Shown: positions 50,801 to 64,000 of the stretch, one piece after another | Position numbering within the stretch: the first letter of the stretch is position 1 | How the letters are laid out: each line of letters begins with the position of its first letter | Assembly: GCA_907165275.2 (NCBI GenBank) | Contig: OU015671.1 | Location: forward strand, 10,423,501-10,487,500 | Length of the DNA stretch: 64,000 bases | Direction: 5' to 3' | Origin: Zygaena filipendulae | Lineage: Eukaryota; Arthropoda; Insecta; Lepidoptera; Zygaenidae | Position numbers and translations under genes: made by a program | The notes under the pieces: model-generated | What the model was told of the DNA's origin: nothing | Database searches by the model: none | What the model saw: the letters and a program-made list of their open reading frames with translations, nothing else

Positions 50801-52394
50801 CCTAGACGCGCGACCCTGTGTCTGCCTATATTCGGTAGAGGTAGTCAACATGGTGGTCTGATGCGATCGATCGACTCCAAAAATCCCTTCTCGAGCTCCC
50901 CCACTATCGACGCGACAATCTACCCGTAGGCAACTCTAGTCCTGCCCTAACGATTATTTCGTCTCTTTGAGATGGCCGGTCGTTCAATCGTCGCTATCGT
51001 AATTAATAAAACCGTGCCCGTCGCGGGCGGCTGCAGTGCGCGCGGAGGGCAAGAGCGTGGTGCAGGTGTGCCGCGAGAGCGCGCCGCTGGCGGGCGTGCT
51101 GCCCGGCTACCTGGCGGCGGACGCGCGGCGCCGGCTGGCCGCGGCCGGCGTGCGGCTGCTGCCCGGCGCCGAGGTGCGCGCCGCGCGGCTCGAGGCCGGC
51201 GCCGTGCGGCTCGAGCTGCGCGGCGGGCCCGAGGCGCGGCTCGACTGCGACCTGGTGGTGGAGTGCGTCGGCAGCGAGCCCGAGGCCGCCGTGGCGGCGG
51301 CGGCCGGCCTCGAGCTGCACCCGGCGCTGGGCGGCGTGGTGGTGAACGCGGAGCTGCAGGCGCGCACCGACGTGTACGCGGCCGGGGACGTGGCCTGCTT
51401 CCACGACGCGGCGCTCGGCCGCCGCCGGCTCGAGCACCACGACCACGCCGTCGTGACGGGCCGCCTCGCCGGGGAGAACATGGCCGCCGTCGCGCCGCCC
51501 AAGGCCTACGCGCACCAGAGCATGTTCTGGAGCGACCTCGGCCCGCAGCTCGGCTACGAGGCACGTAGCCGCCCCGCCCGCCTCGCACCCCCCACCGGGC
51601 GCGCCCTTAACGCTGTGTACTCTTTCAGGCCATAGGCATCATAGACTCGACGCTGCCCACCGTGGGGGTGTTCTCGGCGGACGCGGTGACGGAGGCGACG
51701 GCGGCGGTGGAGGGGGTCGCCACCGCCGGGGCGGGGGCGGGGGCGGGCGCGTCTGCGGAGGCGGCGACGGGGGCGGGAGCGGAGGCGGGAGCGGAGGCGG
51801 AGGCGGACGAGCCGGCGGCGTCGCGGCGCTACGAGCGCGGCGTGGTGTTCTACCTGCGCGAGCGGCGCGTGGTGGGCGTGCTGCTGTGGAACCTGTTCAA
51901 CCGCATGCACGTCGCGCGGCAGGTGCGTGCGGGGCGGGGCGGGGCGGGGCGGGGCGGGGCGGGGCGCGCTGCCCACACTGGGGACTTTATGAATTGATAA
52001 TACACATTCCTTGAACGCCTGTCGAGATAGAATGGATAGCTGCTCTATTCGGATTCGACTCGATTCAAAAATCTAGTTTCGTTTATTCCGAAATCGACTG
52101 ACACAAAAGTAGAATAGACATTTCACTGTTGAACGTAGAAACTGAGCAAAGATTTCCATATGTCGCTGTAGCTAATTCCGAATGTGCACTAGTGAAAAAT
52201 GTTCAAGAATCTAGGGATCAATAATATATAAATAATGACTGTCGAAGCTCACATCGCGCGGTGACCGATGTGCGCGGCCAGGAGCCGTTCCCTCACGCAG
52301 CCGTTCCCTCACGCGCCCGCAGGTGCTGGCGCAGGGCGAGTTCGAGGACCTGTTCGAGGCGGCCAAGCTGTTCGCGCTGCACGAGGACGACTGA
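47878..52394 (+). CDS. AIFM1: Mitochondrial apoptosis-inducing factor 1 (AIFM1)
   Basis: Eight exons (47878-47965, 48098-48135, 49101-49244, 49351-49408, 49769-50452, 51037-51560, 51629-51922, 52323-52394) sum to 1902 nt, 633 aa, all in phase. The N-terminus is presequence-like, then a Pro-rich stretch and an inner-membrane anchor (AAAVALTASIGG + VYFYRK). The FAD/NAD oxidoreductase core follows: YLLVGAGTASFAALRAIRA, PYMRPPLSKELW, FRQWNGK, VAVVGGGLLATELSAAL, VNAELQARTDVYAAGDVACF and LEHHDHAVVTGRLAGENM. The AIF C-terminal domain has HQSMFWSDLGPQLGYEA and VVGVLLWNLFNRM. AIF supports respiratory-chain biogenesis and can trigger caspase-independent death. The intron after 51560 has no usable GT donor and is best read as GC-AG (GAG|GCACGT), since YEA|IGIIDS is conserved. 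An Ala/Gly-rich insert lies in exon 7. The stop is only 4 kb from telomere repeats. Confidence 0.93.
48136..49100. other. AIFM1 intron 2
   Basis: AT-rich intron between GTATCT and TTCTTAAG. No element or gene was recognised. Confidence 0.5.
50530..50905 (+). repeat. Copy of the CTCGAG-satellite element in AIFM1 intron 5
   Basis: GAAATCGGCAGATTATATTT, ACCCACCATATCTCAAACTG and TCAACATGGTG segments match 39225-39545 in the TSC1 intron in the same order, about 80% identical by eye. Confidence 0.65.
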
Positions 52395-52471
52395 GCGCGC
52401 CCGGCGGCGGCGGCCGGCGCCGCTACCGCAACATACCTGACTGTTTGTGTACATATTATGTATCTTACTTT

Positions 52472-52477
52472 AATAAA
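52472..52477 (+). promoter_or_regulatory. AIFM1 poly(A) signal
   Basis: AATAAA lies 78 bases after the AIFM1 stop codon. Confidence 0.7.
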
Positions 52478-52578
52478 ATATTAATATTAGTGATTATTAT
52501 TTATGTTTTATTTATGTATTCGTAACGGGTCCTTGAGTATCGTACCGATCATTCTTTGCGACATTGATATATTTAATA

Positions 52579-52815
52579 CTAGCTGACCCCCGTGGTTTCA
52601 CTCGCGGGAATTTCGGGATCATAAGTGAAAGAATTTTGAAAATCGGTTCAGTAGATCTAGAGTTTTTAACGTCGCTAACCTCCGGAGTTCTCGCGAGAAT
52701 CCCGGGATAAAAAATTACCCAATGTCACTTAGGTTCACTGCAGATTTTAAAATGTGAAAGAATTCTTAAAATCAGTTCAGTAGATCCAGAGAATATCATT
52801 TACAATCTCACAAAC
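52579..52815 (-). mobile_element. Helitron-like element, diverged
   Basis: CTAGCTGACCCCCGTGGTTT start with a duplicated AAATCRGTTCAGTAGATCYAGAG body, as in the long copy at 18915. The far end runs into CAACAACAACAAC. Confidence 0.55.
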
Positions 52816-52829
52816 AACAACAACAACTA

Positions 52830-53215
52830 ATAATTTGCATCAAATCTAAGACTACTGGTCATGATGATGTGAGCAGAATGATGATCTCCCTTTTACTTAA
52901 TTTTATTCTCCCTGTGGTTACTCACATAATAAATTTTTCGATTACATCTGGTGAATTTCCTGAGTTATGGCTCAGAGCTTTTGTAATTCTTCTTCCAAAA
53001 GTCTCCAACCCCTCATTACCGAAGCACTACCGTCCTATATCTATACTCCCATTCCTTTCTAAAATCCTTGAGGCTGTGGTCCACCAACAACTTCCAGTTT
53101 TATTTCAAATTTCCACATCCTCAGTCCCGTTCAATCCGGCTTCCGACCAGGCCACAACACCACTACTGCCCTGTTAAAAATCACCGAAGATATTAGGGAT
53201 GGCATGGAACCGTAG
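52830..53215 (+). pseudogene. LINE reverse-transcriptase fragment
   Basis: KTTGHDDVSRMM, FPELWLRAFVILLPKVSNP and HYRPISILPFLSKILEAVVH are motifs of the N-terminal RT fingers of non-LTR elements. The frame breaks after VLFQIS (FNPASDQATT should read as the QxGFRPGH block in another frame). The catalytic region is absent, so this is a dead fragment. Confidence 0.8.
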
Positions 53216-53374
53216 ATGGAGAATGAATAGATAAGGCGATTTCCTTCTCTTTCTAATAATAAGCGAGACAGTGTTATGGCTAAGTTCTTAAGAGTGAAAG
53301 AGATTTCCAATTATCTTTTGTCCTTATCTAGCGTATAGGTTTTTTTTTTTTTTTTTAACCAATAGATAGAGTGA

Positions 53375-53464
53375 TTCATGAGGAAGGTTTGTAACTATAT
53401 TTTATCCTGGAATTCCTGCGGGAACTCCGAAATTACCACGGGTGAAACCGCGCGGGTCAGCTAG
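53375..53464 (+). mobile_element. Helitron-like 3' end fragment
   Basis: CCTGGAATTCCTGCGGGAAC and GTGAAACCGCGCGGGTCAGCTAG. Only the last 90 bases of the family remain. Confidence 0.6.
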
Positions 53465-53646
53465 TATATTATAAATCCCCTCGACACCATCAGGCATCGA
53501 TGATTTATAGTTTATATACAAAACAACCTATCCTTTAAAACTCCATTTTACTTCCTATAGCTTTTTCATCACCAAACAAGCTAAAACTCCTTGGAAATTG
53601 GGAATAAGTTATTTAGTGGCAATACTGGTAGTTTACATGTGTGCAT

Positions 53647-56431
<2,785 letters not shown>

Positions 56432-56433
56432 CG

Positions 56434-56550
56434 TTTGGACGAGTTAGGTTTGGACGAGTTAGGTTTGGACGAGTTAGGTTTGGACGAGTTAGGTTTGGAC
56501 GAGTTAGGTTTGGACGAGTTAGGTTTGGTTAGGTTAGGTTAGGTTAGGTT
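56434..56550 (+). repeat. Start of the telomere array: degenerate 15-mers then TTAGG
   Basis: Six perfect copies of TTTGGACGAGTTAGG (56434-56523), then TTTGG, four TTAGG and TT. All stay in one 5-base register, so each 15-mer reads as three telomere-like pentamers: TTTGG, ACGAG, TTAGG. Confidence 0.95.
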
Positions 56551-57390
56551 CCCCCCCGAATTGGGTCCCCGCCTTGTCGTGGCGGGGGGGCTCTAGTAAC
56601 CGTGGACTCGTCACCCACGGTGAAGCTAAGAGGGACCCAGAGGCGGGCCGGAATGCCGGGTGCGGCGCTGATCTGGGGGACGGCGCTGCGCCCGACATGA
56701 GGCACCGGACGGGGCCGTCTCACCCACTTGCAGGCGGCAAGCACGGGGTCGAGGCGGCCCATGTAGGTGGCGCTGTCGTCCTCCGGGGCGGCGGCGCCAC
56801 TGAGGCGGGCTGCGGTGGCTCGGGGAGCACCGCGGCTGAGGGTTAGAGGCCGTGGAGACGTTTTCCTCTGCGGCCTCGACGGGGCCGCCCCGGTGATTGG
56901 CGGCGTGGAGGGGCTGCGGGGGGAGGGGAGTGCTGGCGCGGAGCTAGTCGGCCCTCCTCACCCTCTGCGGCCGTCGTGGTGGGCGGCGGGGCCACTGACC
57001 CGACCCGTCGCAGGGGGCCTTGGGCGCCGGTCATGGGCCCGACCGGCGTCCTTTGCACAAGGTCCCCGAGAGGGAGGAGGACGGCGATGCGTCGCGTGTT
57101 CCGGCGCATCGTCGTCATTCTGAGGGGCACTCGTGCCCCTCGAGGAGGAGCCCGGCAACGGGCTGGCGCCGTCGGGGCTGCGGAGCATGCGAAAGCGATT
57201 CCCGTGGCCCCGGCGCTAGGCGCGGAGGAGGAACACCCCAGGGTTTTTAGTGGGTAGCATTCCCGCCCTTCTCAGGGCGGGTTGCCCTTATCAGGGCAGA
57301 GTCCCACATAACCATCGCCCCGGCCCGGGGGCGGTGGTATGCATAAAGCATTTTCCCTGGGTCAAAAAAAAAAAAAAAAAAAAAAAAAAA
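56551..57390 (+). mobile_element. Short telomere-specific retroposon, copy 1
   Basis: 840 bp from CCCCCCCGAATTGGGTCCCC to TTTTCCCTGGGTC followed by A27, inserted between ...TTAGGTT and GGTTAGG. The 5' head (GGGTCCCCGCCTTGTCGTGG, then GTGAAGCTAAGAGGGACCC) is shared with the longer LINE at 62227. The 3' part has stem-forming CCCGCCC...GGGCGGG and GCCCTT...AGGGC pairs. No RT, endonuclease or convincing gag frame is present. It is probably a non-autonomous relative of SART-type elements. Confidence 0.8.
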
Positions 57391-57414
57391 GGTTAGGTTA
57401 GGTTAGGTTAGGTT
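57391..57414 (+). repeat. TTAGG telomere repeats
   Basis: GG, four TTAGG units and TT separate the first two retroposons. Confidence 0.97.
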
Positions 57415-58227
57415 CCCCCCCGAATTGGGTCCCCGCCTTGTCGTGGCGGGGGGGCTCTAGTAGCCGTGGACTCGTCACCCACGGTGAAGCTAAGAGGGAC
57501 CCAGAGGCGGGCCGGAATGCCGGGTGCGGCGCTGATCTGGGGGACGGCGCTGCGCCCGACATGAGGCACCGGACGAGGCCGTCTCACCCACTTGCAGGCG
57601 GCAAGCACGGGGTCGAGGCGGCCCATGTAGGTGGCGCTGTCGTCCTCCGGGGCGGCGGTGCCACTGAGGCGGGCTGCGGTGGCTCGGGGAGCACCGCGGC
57701 TGAGGGTTAGAGGCCGTGGAGACGTTTTTCCTCTGCGGCCTCGACGGGGCCGCCCCGGTGATTGGCGGCGTGGAGGGGCTGCGGGGGGAGGGGAGTGCTG
57801 GCGCGGAGCTAGTCGGCCCTCCTCACCCTCTGCGGCCGTCGTGGTGGGCGGCGGGGCCACTGACCCGACCCGTCGCAGGGGGCCTTGGGCGCCGGTCATG
57901 GGCCCGACCGGCGTCCTTTGCACAAGGTCCCCGAGAGGGAGGAGGACGGCGGTGCGTCGCGTGTTCCGGCGCATCGTCGTCATTCTGAGGGGCACTTGTG
58001 CCCCTCGAGGAGGAGCCCGGCAACGGGCTGGCGCCGTCGGGGCTGCGGAGCATGCGAAAGCGATTCCCGTGGCCCCGGCAACAGGCGCGGAGGAGGAACA
58101 CCCCAGGGTTTTTAGTGGGTAGCATTCCCGCCCTTCTCAGGGCGGGTTGCCCTTTTCAGGGCAGAGTCCCACATAACCATCGCCCCGGCCCGGGGGCGTT
58201 GGTATGCATAAAGCATTTTCCCTGGGT

Positions 58228-58273
<46 letters not shown>
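57415..58273 (+). mobile_element. Short telomere-specific retroposon, copy 2
   Basis: 859 bp and nearly identical to copy 1 (a handful of substitutions, e.g. GGCAACAGGCG for GGCGCTAGGCG), ending in A45. Same TT|GG target junctions. The high identity indicates recent insertion or duplication within the telomere. Confidence 0.85.
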
Positions 58274-58275
<2 letters not shown>

Positions 58276-58352
58276 TTAGGTTAGGTTAGGTTAGGTTAGG
58301 TTAGGTTAGGTTAGGTTAGGTTAGGTTAGGTTAGGTTAGGTTAGGTTAGGTT
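58274..58352 (+). repeat. TTAGG telomere repeats
   Basis: GG, fifteen perfect TTAGG units and TT. Confidence 0.98.
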
Positions 58353-59800
58353 CCCCCCCGAATTGGGTTCCCGCCTTGTCGTGGCGGGGGGGCTTAGTAG
58401 CCGTGGGTACTGTCCACCCACGGTGAAGCCAAGAGGAACCCTGAGGCGGGCCGGAATGCCGGTGAGTGCGGCGCTGAGAAGGGCCAGCGCTGCGCCCGAC
58501 ATGAGGCACCGAGACGGGTAGGTTGCGCCTCTCGGGCGCTTTGGCGTGGGGGCGCGACTGAGGCGGGTCGCGGCGTAAAAACCGTGGCCGGGAGAGGGGA
58601 CGGTAGGTTGCGCCTCTCGGGCGCTTTGGCGTGGGGGTGCAACTGAGGTGGGCCGCGGCGTAAAAAACCGTGGCCGGGAGAGGGGAGCGTAGGCCGTGCC
58701 TCTCGGGCGCTTTGGCGTGGGGGCGCGGCTGAGGCGGGTCGCGGCGTAAAAACCGTGGCCGGGAGAAGGGCCGGAACGTTCGGGTGCGGCGCCGTCGATT
58801 TCATCCGACGCCGCGCCCGGCATGCGGCACCGGGACGGGTAGGCCGTGCCTCTCGGGCGCTTTGGCGTGGGGGCGCGGCTGAGGCGGGTCGCGGCGTAAA
58901 AACCGTGGCCGGGAGAAGGGCCGGAATGCTCGGGTGCGGCGCCGTCGATTTCATCCGACGCCGCGCCCGGCATGCGGCACCGGGACGGGTAGGCCGTGCC
59001 TCTCGGGCGCTTTGGCGTGGGGGCGCGGCTGAGGCGGGTCGCGGCGTAAAAACCGTGGCCGGGAGAAGGGCCGGAATGTTCGGGTGCGGCGCCGTCGATT
59101 TCATCCGACGCCGCGCCCGGCATGAGGCACCGGGAGGGGGCCGTCTCACCCACTTGCAGGCAGCAAGCACGTGGTCGAGGCGGCCCATGTAGGTGGCGCT
59201 GTCGTCCTCCGGGGCGGCGGCGCCACTGAGGCGGGCCGCGGTGGCTCGGGGAGCACCGCGGCTGAGTGTTAGAGGCCGTGGAGATGCTTTTCCTCTGCGG
59301 CCTCGACGGGGCCGCCCCGGTGATTGGCGGCGTGGAGGGGCTGCGGGGGGAGGGGAGTGCTGGCGCGGAGCTAGTCGGCCCTCCTCACCCCCTGCGGCCG
59401 TCGTGGTGGGCGGCGGGGCCACTTACCTGACCCGTCGCAGGGGGCCTTGGGCGCCGGTCATGGGCCCGGCCGGCGTCCTTTGCACAAGGTCCCCGAGAGA
59501 GGGAGGAGGGCGGCGGTGCGCCGCGTGTTCCGGCGCATCGTCGTCATTCTGAGGGGCACTCGTGCCCCTCGAGGAGGAGCCCGGAGACGGGCTGGCGCCG
59601 TCGGGGCTGCGGAGCATGCGAAAGCGATTCCCGCGGCCCCGGCAACAGGCGCGGAGGAGGAACACCCCAGGGTTTTTAGTGGGTAGCATTCCCGCCCTTC
59701 TCAGGGCGGGTTGCCCTTTTCAGGGCAGAGTCCCACATAACCATCGCCCCGGCCCGGGGGCGGTGGTATGCATAAAGCATTTTCCCTGGGTCAAAAAAAA
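58353..59800 (+). mobile_element. Short telomere-specific retroposon, copy 3, with internal tandem repeats
   Basis: 1448 bp with the same head and tail as copies 1 and 2 and an A8 tail. It carries a roughly 600-bp internal expansion (58511-59125): five units around CTCTCGGGCGCTTTGGCGTG, at 58530, 58613, 58699, 58849 and 58999. The last units have an exact 150-bp period. The long open frames on the minus strand follow from the repeat period being divisible by three. Confidence 0.85.
58511..59125 (+). repeat. Tandem repeats inside retroposon copy 3
   Basis: Three units of about 83-86 bp are followed by 150-bp units that add a CCGGAATG...CATGCGGCACCGGGACGGG segment derived from the element's own 5' region. 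Confidence 0.9.
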
Positions 59801-59869
59801 GGTTAGGTTAGGTTAGGTTAGGTTAGGTTAGGTTAGGTTAGGTTAGGTTAGGTTAGGTTAGGTTAGGTT

Positions 59870-59872
<3 letters not shown>
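59801..59872 (+). repeat. TTAGG telomere repeats
   Basis: GG and fourteen TTAGG units, ending in the T run that is the poly(A) tail of the minus-strand element. Confidence 0.97.
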
Positions 59873-59933
<61 letters not shown>

Positions 59934-60289
59934 CCTAGCCCTTTGACATTATCAAAGCCCTTATCTACTACACACATTCATTCCAGTTCTCGCAATTGCT
60001 ACTTCTCGTACGTTCATTCTGCATACTTATTTCTTCTTTCATCCTTCTTATCTTTTATTCCTACTTGGTGGGTTACCAAGCTATCTCTATTCTATCTCTA
60101 TCTACATCTTACTCTATTTTACACGGGGATGGGTCGGGGTTTCTGTTTATTTTATTTATCCACTTTATTTTAAAAGTATTGTCCTTATATTACATTTTAT
60201 GCTACTTTCTTAAAAAATTATCTAGTACATTATATCTTACTTAGTTTATTATCATATTTTTTATTTAAACAGGGTTTAATCTTATGAGC

Positions 60290-60535
60290 GGCGCACGCCG
60301 CGGGCAGCATCCGCCGCGGGTGACACCCGCCGCGGGCGACACCGGCCGCGGGTGACATCCGCCGCGGCGACATCCGCCGCGGGTGACACCCGCCGCGGGT
60401 GACACCCGCCGCGGCGACATCCGCCGCGGTGACATCCGCCGCGGGCGACACCCGCCGCGGGCGACATCCGCCGCGGGTGACACCCGCCGCGGGTGACGCC
60501 CGCCGCGGGCGACACCCACCGCGAGCGACATAGTC
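60290..60535. repeat. GC-rich minisatellite in the LINE 3' UTR
   Basis: About sixteen units of 12-15 bases, CGCCGCGGGTGACAC and variants, each carrying a self-complementary CCGCGG. It stands out in the otherwise AT-rich 3' UTR. Confidence 0.9.
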
Positions 60536-60809
60536 TATTTATTACATTCTCTTATTATATCTACCTTAGTTTATTTCATCTCAACTTCCTTATTTATTAT
60601 CTATTACATTATCTTTTCTTATATTTTAATTAGTTTATTACTAACTATACAGTACTTTTCTTATATTAAACACAAGCAACTCCCTTTTATCAAGAAAAAA
60701 TTTTTACAACTTCCTATTATCTACTTACATTCTTATCCTATATTTGTTTAACTGTCTATACTGTTTATGATATCTTTTATATATATCAATATATAGTATA
60801 TCATAATAA

Positions 60810-62167
60810 TTATACTGTTTTATTCCTTTTGTTTACTTTTTTAACGATTTGGCAACAATAATCAAGGAATTTATCCCTGTTTTTACCCCTTAGAATGCCT
60901 GGGACACTGTCCGCCACGATCCTTTCGCCCACCTCCATCTCCGCTTTATAGCGGTCCAAGATGAAGGCGGGACAATCGAAGAGGACGTGAGGGACAGTCT
61001 CCCACACATCGGGGTCACAGATACACGATGGGCTCTCCTTACACTTGAAGCGATTCAAGTATTCGGAGAACCCACCGTGTCCCGTCATCGCCTGAGTGGT
61101 GAAATTGCTGTGCTCTATCTTCCTCACAATACTGTACGCGGCAACCGCATCGGGGAAAAATATTTTAGTGACTGCCGCGGTATCCCCAGAGATGTATCTC
61201 CGGTTCCACTCGGCAAGCGACTCCGTTCGGAGTATTCGCTTGACGAATGAGACCGGACACACATCATAGTCTGGTCGCTTTTTAGACCCGAGGGCGGCCT
61301 CCTTGGCGAGCGCGTCGGCTCTCTCGTTTCCCTCCAATCCTGCGTGGGCTTTAATCCAGAATAAGGAGACACTCTTATTCTGGATGTGGCAGTGAGCTAT
61401 GGTGTCTCTTGTTTCCACAGCCAGGGGATGGAGGCAAGCGGGATTCGACACGGTCTGGAGAGCCGCCATCGAGTCACTATATATTGCGTAGGACATGTCT
61501 CCGCCACCCAGGGCCACCCTAGCCGCTCTGCATATAGCCAAGAGCTCGGCCTGGTAGACGGTACAATACGATGGTAGAGCAAGCTTGATGGCACGGGTTT
61601 CGGTTTCTCTATTCCATAAAGATAGAGCTGCGCCGACCCTGCCATCAATCTTGCTCCCATCTGTAAAGATACGGACATTAAAGTCACTATGACTGAGGTA
61701 AAGTTCCTCGTCTACCAGGTTTTTGAACTCAAGTCTGATACGCTTCGCGGGATGAGGGACCCCGAGCGCCGAAGACATGACCTCGACCTCCCTGTCACCT
61801 AGCACTGCCTGGGGCACCCCCCTCTTAGCTTCGTACAGTAGAGCTGCTTCTCGCACGCGGAGGTCGAGGGGAAGTATCCCAGACAGCACCAGCGCCGAGT
61901 GCAGCGAGACGGTCCGATAAGCCCGGCAGAGTTTCTGCGCGAACCCGCGTTGCACGCTTGCAAGGTATTTGCGTGCTCCCAGTTTATTGACTGCCGGTGC
62001 CCAAGCACTTGCCGCGTACAGTATTATGGGCTCTACCGCTGCCGTGTAAATAACCCTAGTGACCTCAGGGTTTAATCCCCAGCTGACCTTCGCCGCCCTA
62101 GCCAACTGCCTATAGATGTTTATTGCTTTTTTACAGACTTGCGCTACATGTGCATTGAATGTCAAGT
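60810..62167 (-). CDS. Telomeric LINE ORF2 C-terminal part: RT end, RNase H, zinc knuckle
   Basis: 452 codons open from the truncation point to a TAG at 60810-60812, with no break. The first 120 residues (WGLNPEVTRVIYTAAVEPII, LYAASAW) are the thumb/connection region of R1-clade reverse transcriptases. The middle has RNase H signatures in order: FTDGSKIDG, YQAELLAICRA, YSDSMAAL and HAGLEGNERADALAK. The tail has a C-x-C-x9-H-x4-C knuckle (CICDPDVWETVPHVLFDC). The family copies itself into TTAGG repeats by target-primed reverse transcription. The catalytic RT core and endonuclease are missing, so this copy is inactive although the remaining frame is intact, which suggests a young insertion. Confidence 0.87.
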
Positions 62168-62226
62168 GGTTAGGTTAGGTTAGGTTAGGTTAGGTTAGGT
62201 TAGGTTAGGTTAGGTTAGGTTAGGTT
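62168..62226 (+). repeat. TTAGG telomere repeats
   Basis: GG, eleven TTAGG units and TT between the minus-strand LINE and the last plus-strand LINE. Confidence 0.98.
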
Positions 62227-64000
62227 CCCCCTCAATCGGGTCCGCGCCTTGTCGTGGCGAGGGGGCTTAGTAGCGGCTGGATGCATTTTTCCCAGCTGTG
62301 AAGCTAAGCGGACCCGCTAGCATATCGTAATCCCGCTCTGAGTGTCGTGGTCATGTCTCGCGGCTCGGAGTGGGACCGAGGGTCCACCGTAAAAAGTGGA
62401 CCGCGAGGAAGAAAACCTCTATAAAAAATTACCCCGGATCCCCCGCTTGTGGCGGTCGGTGGGGGGTTCGCCGGGGATAGTGGCCCGGATGCCAGGCCGT
62501 CACGGGGGGCATACCCCGATAAGAATAGCAAAACCAAAAAATGAAGAAGAAAACGCAATTGGCTAAAAATCCCCACGTGGGTACCGGCCCCGAAAGGGCC
62601 GGCCAGTCCCACCCCGGACACCGAGGTCCGGGCCGCCCCTCGTATGTGGGGGGGGCACCAATGCGTGGAGGAAAGGAGGAGAAGGGAGTAGATGGGGGTG
62701 AGGGGTGGCCGCCTCCAGACCCAAGGCCACCCAAACAAACACGACTTCTGGCATGGAATAGGCTTATGCAAAGGAGAGAGTGGGAGTGTGATCTTGCATC
62801 GGTGAGTGAGTCACAGTTGCAGGAAAAGATGCTCGAGGAGTATGAGTACTGGGAGACTGCCTGCTTGGAGGAGATGGTAGAGCTCATTACGGGGGACACG
62901 CCGAAGGGAAAGTATACTCCTCGGCAAGTATACATCGACTCACTGTCCGATCGGGATATTGAGGCTGAGGTCCGTGAGGACATTCGGGTTAGACACAGGC
63001 TGCTGTTGGCTGAGCGACAGAAGCTTAGAGCAGCAGCCCGTGCCACCGACGAGAGAGCCATCCAGCCGTCCGTGTCGGGCGCTGGAGGGCCCACAACCCC
63101 TTCGCCCGGACTACCTGTGGTGGTTCTGGAGAGGATGGAGGTCCCTCCGGCGTCCGGGCTGGGCGGTTATGGTGAGTCATCTGCTGGCTCGTCCCGTGAG
63201 AGTAGCGGGACGAGGAAGCGGACAAGAGAGGAGGAGAACATTGGGGACCGGTCGCCCGCAGGTCCTACGATCCCTCGTTTTAGATCGGAGGCAAAGCGGG
63301 GTCGCCTGCGCAAACCGGGGGCCAGCCAATCTGCCTCGCATGACGATGAGCTCCTCGAAGTTGCATCAGGGGCGGAGACAGCTAGGCGAGACGTGGCGGA
63401 TCGTGTCGCCAGAGCGGGGAAGGGTTCGGTTTCGGGGGTCGGGGCTGTCTCGCTAAACGAGCCAGCCTGCGACCTTCGGGATCGCATCTTCGAGGACACG
63501 GAGGTTATCTGTCGTGTCGCTGCCGGGTCGGGTAACTTGAAGGGCACAAGTGTTCGCGCCCTCAAGGAGGCGGCGGCACGCATAGATGACAGGGTGAAAA
63601 CCCTCGCAGAGCGCTCCGTGTCCGACGAAACGTCGAGATTGGCTGCCCAGAACGCCCGTCTCCGGGCGGAGGTCGACGGACTTCACAAGGAGGTCGCCGC
63701 CCTTCGCGCGGAGATGGCTAGGGCCAACCAGTCCCAGGTGAGGCAGGAGGAGGTGGCTCGGGAGCAGCCTCTCTCCCGTGAAGTTGTGGAAGCGATCCGG
63801 CATATGGTGGCTGCTTCCATCGAAGGGAGGCTGGTCCCGGACCGGCCGCGACCACTCCCCCGGCGGGTAGGGCGGATAGAGAGAGCGGAGGAGCTCGCGC
63901 AACCCATTGTGGAAGTTGCGCCAGCCCCCCCGCATCAGGCCCAGAAGAAGGGCACTAAGGGGCCTCCACGGACGGTCCCTGAGACGGCTTCTCCCCGTCC
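62227..64000 (+). mobile_element. SART-like telomeric LINE, 5' end (continues past window)
   Basis: Begins CCCCCTCAATCGGGTCCGCG after ...TTAGGTT, with the head motif GCCTTGTCGTGGCG and GTGAAGCTAAGCGGACCC shared with the short retroposons. A 314-base 5' UTR is followed by ORF1, which is still open at the window end. The plus orientation and the TT junction match the insertion mode of the short elements. Confidence 0.8.
62541..64000 (+). CDS. ORF1 (gag-like) of the telomeric LINE, partial
   Basis: ATG at 62541 (MKKKTQLAKNPHVG) opens a frame with no stop for 486 codons up to the last base. A second in-frame ATG is at 62661. The product is charged and hydrophilic, with an acidic/Glu-rich helix region (residues about 85-160), a basic KRTREEE patch and a long coiled coil near 63590-63760 (LAAQNARLRAEVDGLHKEVA). 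That is the usual layout of R1-clade ORF1 before its CCHC knuckles, which would lie beyond the window. ORF1 proteins bind the element's RNA and carry it to the telomere. Only the C-terminal part would settle the family. Confidence 0.75.
   Translation, partial: MKKKTQLAKNPHVGTGPERAGQSHPGHRGPGRPSYVGGAPMRGGKEEKGVDGGEGWPPPDPRPPKQTRLLAWNRLMQRREWECDLASVSESQLQEKMLEEYEYWETACLEEMVELITGDTPKGKYTPRQVYIDSLSDRDIEAEVREDIRVRHRLLLAERQKLRAAARATDERAIQPSVSGAGGPTTPSPGLPVVVLERMEVPPASGLGGYGESSAGSSRESSGTRKRTREEENIGDRSPAGPTIPRFRSEAKRGRLRKPGASQSASHDDELLEVASGAETARRDVADRVARAGKGSVSGVGAVSLNEPACDLRDRIFEDTEVICRVAAGSGNLKGTSVRALKEAAARIDDRVKTLAERSVSDETSRLAAQNARLRAEVDGLHKEVAALRAEMARANQSQVRQEEVAREQPLSREVVEAIRHMVAASIEGRLVPDRPRPLPRRVGRIERAEELAQPIVEVAPAPPHQAQKKGTKGPPRTVPETASPR

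Follow-up and report, generated by a model that had tools for sequence, protein, structure and literature searches.

Short ribozyme-headed elements in the telomeric repeats of Zygaena filipendulae as probable parasites of SART-like retrotransposons

Results

Three related short elements lie in TTAGG repeats near a contig end. We analyzed a 64,000-nucleotide stretch of the Zygaena filipendulae genome (C22:10423501-10487500, here called the window) in a 365.9-Mb assembly, many contigs of which open with CCTAA arrays. The window is followed by 5000 N, and the contig ends 10 kb beyond it. Three short units in its TTAGG repeats very probably belong, as young copies, to a family of non-autonomous retroposons with a ribozyme head, which we read as short internally deleted elements (SIDEs) exploiting the SART-like, R1-clade long interspersed nuclear elements (LINEs) of the same genome and presumably mobilized in trans by the LINE machinery.

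The units measure 840, 859 and 1448 bp, poly(A) included (56551-57390, 57415-58273 and 58353-59800), with the shared head, precise ends and poly(A) that the original prediction, made from the sequence alone, had described. Each begins with CCCCCCCGAATTGGGT directly after ...TTAGGTT (TTAGGTT|CCCCCCC) and ends with ...CCCTGGGTC plus 27, 45 and 8 A in copies 1, 2 and 3, followed by GGTTAGG. All three do lie in TTAGG, as predicted; the junction proposed at the time, TT|GG, is better read as TT|AGG, since the target A fuses with the poly(A). Copies 1 and 2 share 98.6% identity; copy 3 matches both at 94.6 to 94.8% across its last ∼726 nt, its greater length being due to internal tandem repeats (units of 85 and 150 bp). 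None of the five body open reading frames (ORFs) of the short elements matched Pfam, and the longest reading frames are not alike from copy to copy; the reverse transcriptase (RT), endonuclease (EN) and ORF1 said to be lacking were indeed not seen. The features concerned, all on the plus strand, are as follows.

56529..56548, +, TTAGG array 5' of copy 1
56551..57390, +, short element copy 1 (840 bp with poly(A)), from its ends and TTAGG flanks
56551..56638, +, hepatitis delta virus (HDV)-like ribozyme fold of copy 1 (P1 from nt 1; J4/2 GCTAAG), from strict descriptor and pair counts
57142..57363, +, 3' tail of copy 1, 79-82% identical to SART-like LINE 3' untranslated regions (UTRs), from alignment and fold
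57364..57390, +, poly(A) of copy 1
57415..58273, +, short element copy 2 (859 bp with poly(A) at 58229-58273)
57415..57502, +, HDV-like ribozyme fold of copy 2, from strict descriptor
58007..58228, +, 3' tail of copy 2, 78-80% identical to SART-like LINE 3' UTRs, from alignment
58353..59800, +, short element copy 3 (1448 bp, 8-nt poly(A), internal 85/150-bp tandem repeats)
58353..58441, +, HDV-like ribozyme fold of copy 3 (P2 C-G to T-A; J4/2 GCCAAG), from strict descriptor
59571..59792, +, 3' tail of copy 3, from alignment and fold
62227..62315, +, homologous HDV-like ribozyme fold at the 5' end of a SART-like LINE, from BLAST and strict descriptor
62227..64000, +, 5' part of that LINE, with an ORF from 62541 (presumed ORF1 by position), ending at the window edge
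57393-57412, 58276-58350, 59803-59872 and 62170-62224, +, further TTAGG arrays

The head fits an HDV-like ribozyme. The head that the short copies were predicted to share with the LINE at 62227 is indeed common to them (77.5 to 79% identity), over only ∼88 to 91 aligned nt. Beyond it, no convincing likeness to the 1774 nt available of that LINE was found, the next-best match being 29 nt (E = 0.014). HDV-like ribozymes adopt a nested double pseudoknot of helices P1 to P4 in which P1 begins at the cleavage site, and carry a conserved catalytic C in J4/2, followed by NAA. The heads have this layout, with P1 (CCCCCCC/GGGGGGG) starting at nucleotide 1, P2 (GGGTCCC/GGGACCC), P3 (GCC/GGC), P4 (CCGTGG/CCACGG) and a J4/2 containing GCTAAG. 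As a predicted fold, the ∼88-nt head thus fits an HDV-like self-cleaving ribozyme beginning at the first nucleotide of the element, and we infer that this start is the cleavage site. SART HDV-like ribozymes were reportedly described by Ruminski et al. in 2011.

The original prediction had left the nature of the head unnamed; the ribozyme fold emerged from a descriptor search and from pair counts. A strict nested-pseudoknot descriptor, run on both strands of the window and of the first 10 kb of contigs C1 to C20, matched seven places, all of them head-bearing 5' ends known from BLAST (copies 1 to 3, one each on C13 and C19, and two LINEs), and matched nothing in 20 simulated 64-kb sequences. 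A looser descriptor was discarded because it also matched unrelated places in the window.

For the pair counts, 20 extra heads were fetched; with one head excluded because its own first nucleotides are repeated (L087, C7:50884), 26 heads remained, forming 12 distinct sets. Over these sets, standard pairs fill 83/84 cells in P1, 84/84 in P2, 35/36 in P3 and 72/72 in P4, so that only 2 of 276 cells are broken (C5:13.71M in P1 and C18 in P3), and J4/2 reads GCTAAG or GCCAAG in 26/26 heads. Copy 3 has T-A in place of C-G in P2, and the LINE at 62227 differs from the short elements by T-A for C-G in P1, G-C for C-G in P2 and three changed P4 pairs. Altogether, two-sided changes occur at six pairs, of which P2-5 and P4-4 vary in this way among short elements too; in some head variants pairs are preserved by G-U wobbles rather than by two-sided change (P2 ...CCT; P1 T5/T6/T7). 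Sliding the partner strand by 1 to 3 nt reduced P2 pairing from 49/49 to 13-32/49 and P1 pairing from 49/49 to 28-39/49.

These counts bear on the most serious alternative, that the fold was inherited from a SART ancestor and no longer cleaves, an internal RNA polymerase II promoter being used instead. Self-cleavage of the head is a prediction, which leaves room for this view; nevertheless, nearly all pairs are preserved across subfamilies despite the changes, which implies recent selection, and we therefore consider a loss of cleavage unlikely.

Variant heads on C36 and C42 were considered as LINE heads and rejected: 321 fetched bases show that the C42 sequence belongs to another short subfamily, 77% identical to copy 1 over the 416 nt read. 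A C19 subfamily is 78 to 85% identical. On C36 (208697/211603) and C42 (886922/889828), two heads of the same variant point apart, with 2.9 kb between them. Two short copies, C11:9126494 (L040) and C7:50884 (L087), open with a repeat of their own first ∼16 to 18 nt, a pattern that a restart or jump of reverse transcription at the 5' end might leave.

The family is biased toward telomeres but not confined to them. A search with copy 2, in which 40 of 644 candidates were scored, yielded 62 matches including the window's own copies 1 and 2. At least 48 were 91 to 100% identical and at least 3 were 80 to 81% identical, covering 813 to 814 of 814 bases, a level of matching far beyond chance. The head pattern (≤2 mismatches) occurs 239 times genome-wide, and the prediction of a real family is borne out by both searches. 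Positions were classified for the first 100 of the 239 heads listed, all exact and on C1 to C20, with terminal meaning within 100 kb of a contig end. Sixty were terminal, 40-fold over expectation, and 59 of these had the telomere-strand orientation; the other 40 were interstitial (25 minus, 15 plus). Genome-wide, TTAGGTT stands right before the head in 99 cases (≤1 mismatch), 92 of them exact. Of the exact cases, 86 lie no more than 98 kb from a contig end and every one of these has the telomeric orientation, whereas the other 6 are on unclassified contigs; the 7 one-mismatch cases, 5 of them on C31, C36 and C42, were left unclassified. The head count thus supports the proposed link to TTAGG for many copies and not for all: the family is telomere-biased, not telomere-specific as had been claimed.

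Several short copies elsewhere in the genome are clustered. Close pairs of interstitial insertions were seen at C18:9930065-9931580, C12:5946515-5947232 and C5:8108232; they possibly arise because the target duplication renews an AGG site.

Interstitial copies reveal the target site. Many copies outside telomeres were what the original prediction had named as speaking against it, and interstitial copies with target-site duplications do exist. We examined 19, comprising all near-full-length copy 2 matches more than 100 kb from a contig end; 14 are among the 40 interstitial heads, the other 26 of which fall outside this sample. All 19 extend to the first nucleotides of the head (C11:9126494 repeating its own start, and several having a variant head) and carry poly(A) of 14 to 36 nt. 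Duplicated target DNA flanks 19/19, with a median of 14 bp, the shared A not counted. The duplication is 9 to 16 bp in 18 copies (at C18:9930767 only 8 nt of the 3' flank were seen, and C5:13708266 has one extra G) and 28 bp at C10:7086180, where a T run is unequal between the two sides. The target is A|GG in 17/19, the exceptions being C9:10486839 and C28:1528552. For comparison, 14-bp duplications are reported for R1 insertions (PMC3414825), and SART1 inserts between T and A of TTAGG, the A being essential (PMC7265360). The interstitial copies therefore give a direct read-out of the nick site and stagger that the telomeric repeats conceal.

It could be argued that the units derive from a single SART locus by internal deletion and spread through recombination between telomeric arrays, not through retroposition, given the near identity of copies 1 and 2, neighbors in tandem within TTAGG, and the clustering of several copies elsewhere. 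We regard this as highly improbable: each of the 19 interstitial full-length copies has its own target duplication and poly(A), the C19 and C42 subfamilies are divergent, and the middle of the short elements has no match to the four LINE pieces with which it was compared. It is equally doubtful that the family is a HeT-A-like, host-serving telomere element selected to lengthen chromosome ends. The terminal heads and their nearly uniform orientation are what such an element would be expected to show; the many interstitial heads on both strands speak against it, as do the window insertions, which sit within TTAGG arrays.

The tail is shared with SART-like LINEs elsewhere in the genome. When the 3' ends of the short elements (copies 1 to 3 and a C19 copy) were aligned with 10 LINE 3' ends, as the original prediction had suggested for the SART-like 3' UTR, they were 76 to 82% identical over 199 to 223 nt, with invariant blocks; the LINEs concerned lie elsewhere in the genome. 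The last 198 nt of the 3' UTR of one LINE on C7 are 80% identical to the last 222 nt of copy 1. The 3' end was rightly foreseen to be structured, as RNAalifold gave 53 consensus pairs common to the 3 short tails and 7 of the 10 LINE tails, none broken and 3 with two-sided changes. An exact match to the tail pattern was not found in collections of viral contigs and genome contigs.

This first C7 LINE adjoins a TTAGG array and has an uninterrupted 1063-aa ORF2 frame (C7 11783..8595, minus), in which a domain scan run in two parts identified EN and RT. ORF1 is missing, and the poly(A) and GGTT of a second C7 LINE directly adjoin the frame. Among the 120 of 312 relatives of the second ORF2 that were listed, those with names belong to Lepidoptera and Hymenoptera, except for one listed under a bacterial name and those under general names. 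The two tandem LINEs (L031 and L017) share the start GCACCACCC after GGTT, which falls in the ORF1 frame in one and near the ORF2 start in the other; judged from sequence, this would be either a shared truncation point or microhomology. The 3' UTR of the second C7 LINE is unlike the short tail and is related (74%) to the 3' UTR of a C5 LINE whose head is of the window-LINE type.

The original prediction saw the units as non-autonomous parasites keeping both ends of a SART-like element. Head and tail are indeed SART-like; the tail matches LINEs elsewhere, however, and the C5 LINE with the window type of head carries a different 3' UTR. The short family may have taken both ends from one LINE or from more than one.

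A 3133-bp interstitial SART-like element on C5 (L072, C5:8101000-8108260) combines a ribozyme head of the window-LINE type with an open frame of 837 aa in the ORF1 region, followed by a 3' UTR with poly(A). It has no long second frame and is flanked by the duplication GGTACGAGGTAGGT, a short element being inserted at its 5' duplication; going by its sequence, it looks like a gag-only derivative.

With the C7 3' UTR as query, 40 of 555 candidates were scored and 40 matches obtained, among them LINEs that end at C8:5344737 and C4:6586157. Among the matches listed, 28 are 83 to 100% identical over nearly the whole 3' UTR; 22 of these lie less than 100 kb from a contig end, 5 are on contigs C32 to C51 and 1 is on C25 (position unclassified). 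Another 10 are 80 to 81% identical, 9 of them interstitial and 1 at 98 kb from an end; the 2 further matches are partial (C54 and C11). In the interstitial LINE ends that were fetched, GG adjoins the poly(A) in 5/5. These sequence matches suggest two LINE lineages with unlike target ranges and a common tail.

The SINE-like strategy originally proposed holds insofar as the elements are short, keep both ends and have no recognizable coding; they are not short interspersed nuclear elements (SINEs) in the strict sense. A classical RNA polymerase III SINE with a LINE-derived tail, for which size, absence of recognizable coding, tail and poly(A) might plead, is the least credible alternative, since a simple consensus scan of five short copies found no A or B box, Rfam gave no match near gathering score in 52000-64000 (five matches far under it, one across copy 3), and the 5' ribozyme fold suits processing out of a longer transcript.

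Other features adjoin the elements. A 2.8-kb (ACA)n array (window 53647-56432) adjoins the telomeric block. The 15-bp TTAGG-like satellite GTTTGGACGAGTTAG (window 56433-56528) flanks TTAGG arrays on C22, C19 and C24, beside short elements. Between copy 3 and the SART-like LINE, a minus-strand LINE (window 59873-62167) has poly(T) at 59873-59930 and an ORF (62165..60810) with an RNase H domain, and is broken off at TTAGG; its orientation matches that reported for TRAS elements. Inside this stretch lies a tandem array of CGCCGCGGGCGACACC (period 16, 15 copies, window 60296-60530).

Discussion

We propose the following cycle for the short, ribozyme-headed family. A short copy would be transcribed within a longer transcript, and its 5' HDV-like ribozyme, whose structure and co-variation are described above, would cut the RNA just before the first C, producing a full-length 5' end without an internal promoter. 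The LINE EN/RT protein would then bind, in trans, the poly(A) and the ∼200-nt structured tail, whose sequence and fold are shared with LINEs; such binding is supported by the published action of SART1 protein in trans, mobilizing RNAs that bear the SART1 3' UTR (PMC7265360). A bottom-strand nick made by EN opposite T|AGG would let target-primed reverse transcription begin in the poly(A), and the top strand would be cut ∼14 bp downstream, a scheme modeled on the junctions and duplications seen at the 19 interstitial copies. Because TTAGG arrays present a site every 5 bp, copies would build up there, and AGG-containing sites elsewhere would serve as targets too.

More tentatively, we consider it possible that a diversified, ribozyme-headed family without coding is moved by two tail-sharing SART-like LINE lineages, one nearly confined to chromosome ends and one mostly interstitial. 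A parasite with only the common RNA handles would thereby reach both compartments, and its interstitial insertions would expose the T|AGG nick and 14-bp stagger.

Several points weigh against our interpretation of the family. Head cleavage and transcription are themselves predictions. P1 consists almost wholly of C-G pairs, which leaves its register open to ambiguity; of the six two-sided changes in the head, four depend solely on the short/LINE difference; and Rfam, in evalue mode, called no HDV family at the heads in 52000-64000. Co-variation is thin in the tail, where 42 of the 53 pairs are invariant, and the closest LINE tails are just ∼82% identical, so that the partner is not pinned down. 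Neither C7 LINE, both opening with the common start after GGTT, has a ribozyme head, and no single LINE with a ribozyme head and a short-like tail was seen, the full 5' ends of the tail-matching LINEs not having been read. Finally, targeting to telomeres is not strict, as the interstitial copies make plain.

The family was originally thought to be undescribed, whereas its kind is already known as SIDE (PMC3414825). By analogy, it is best read as a telomeric counterpart of the R2 SIDEs of Drosophila, including R2Dwi_SIDE (Eickbush and Eickbush 2012, PMC3414825). Like the short elements here, R2 SIDEs have a 5' HDV-like ribozyme, an unrelated middle, the 3' end of an autonomous site-specific LINE, poly(A) and mostly precise 5' junctions; they differ in residing in 28S ribosomal DNA (rDNA) and using R2 machinery (R1 in hybrids), whereas those here occupy TTAGG and other AGG sites and would use SART-like machinery. 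The trypanosomatid NARTc/RIME elements, also called SIDEs, are likewise short and keep the ends of L1Tc/ingi LINEs and a 5' HDV-like ribozyme region, and an additional role in activating transcription is described for their 5' module; the string "telomer" is absent from that text (PMC4035085). SART1 of Bombyx mori resembles our elements in that it has poly(A), inserts between T and A of TTAGG and has a 3' UTR recognized in trans; unlike them, it is 6.7 kb long with ORF1 and ORF2, and the words SINE and ribozyme are absent from the text describing it (PMC7265360). HDV-like ribozymes at the 5' end of telomere-specific SART are known (PMC11620745) from autonomous elements, whereas here the fold also occurs in a derivative without recognizable coding. 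SIDEs with HDV-like ribozymes have thus been described for rDNA (PMC3414825) and trypanosomatids (PMC4035085). In the literature searched, whose scope excluded most subscription papers and repeat databases, no SIDE at telomeres was seen; a named family may exist.

If our interpretation is correct, TTAGG chromosome ends would host a two-tier parasitism. The short elements would also be a natural minimal substrate, consisting of ribozyme, ∼200-nt tail and poly(A), with which to study the choice of RNA and target by SART-type proteins.

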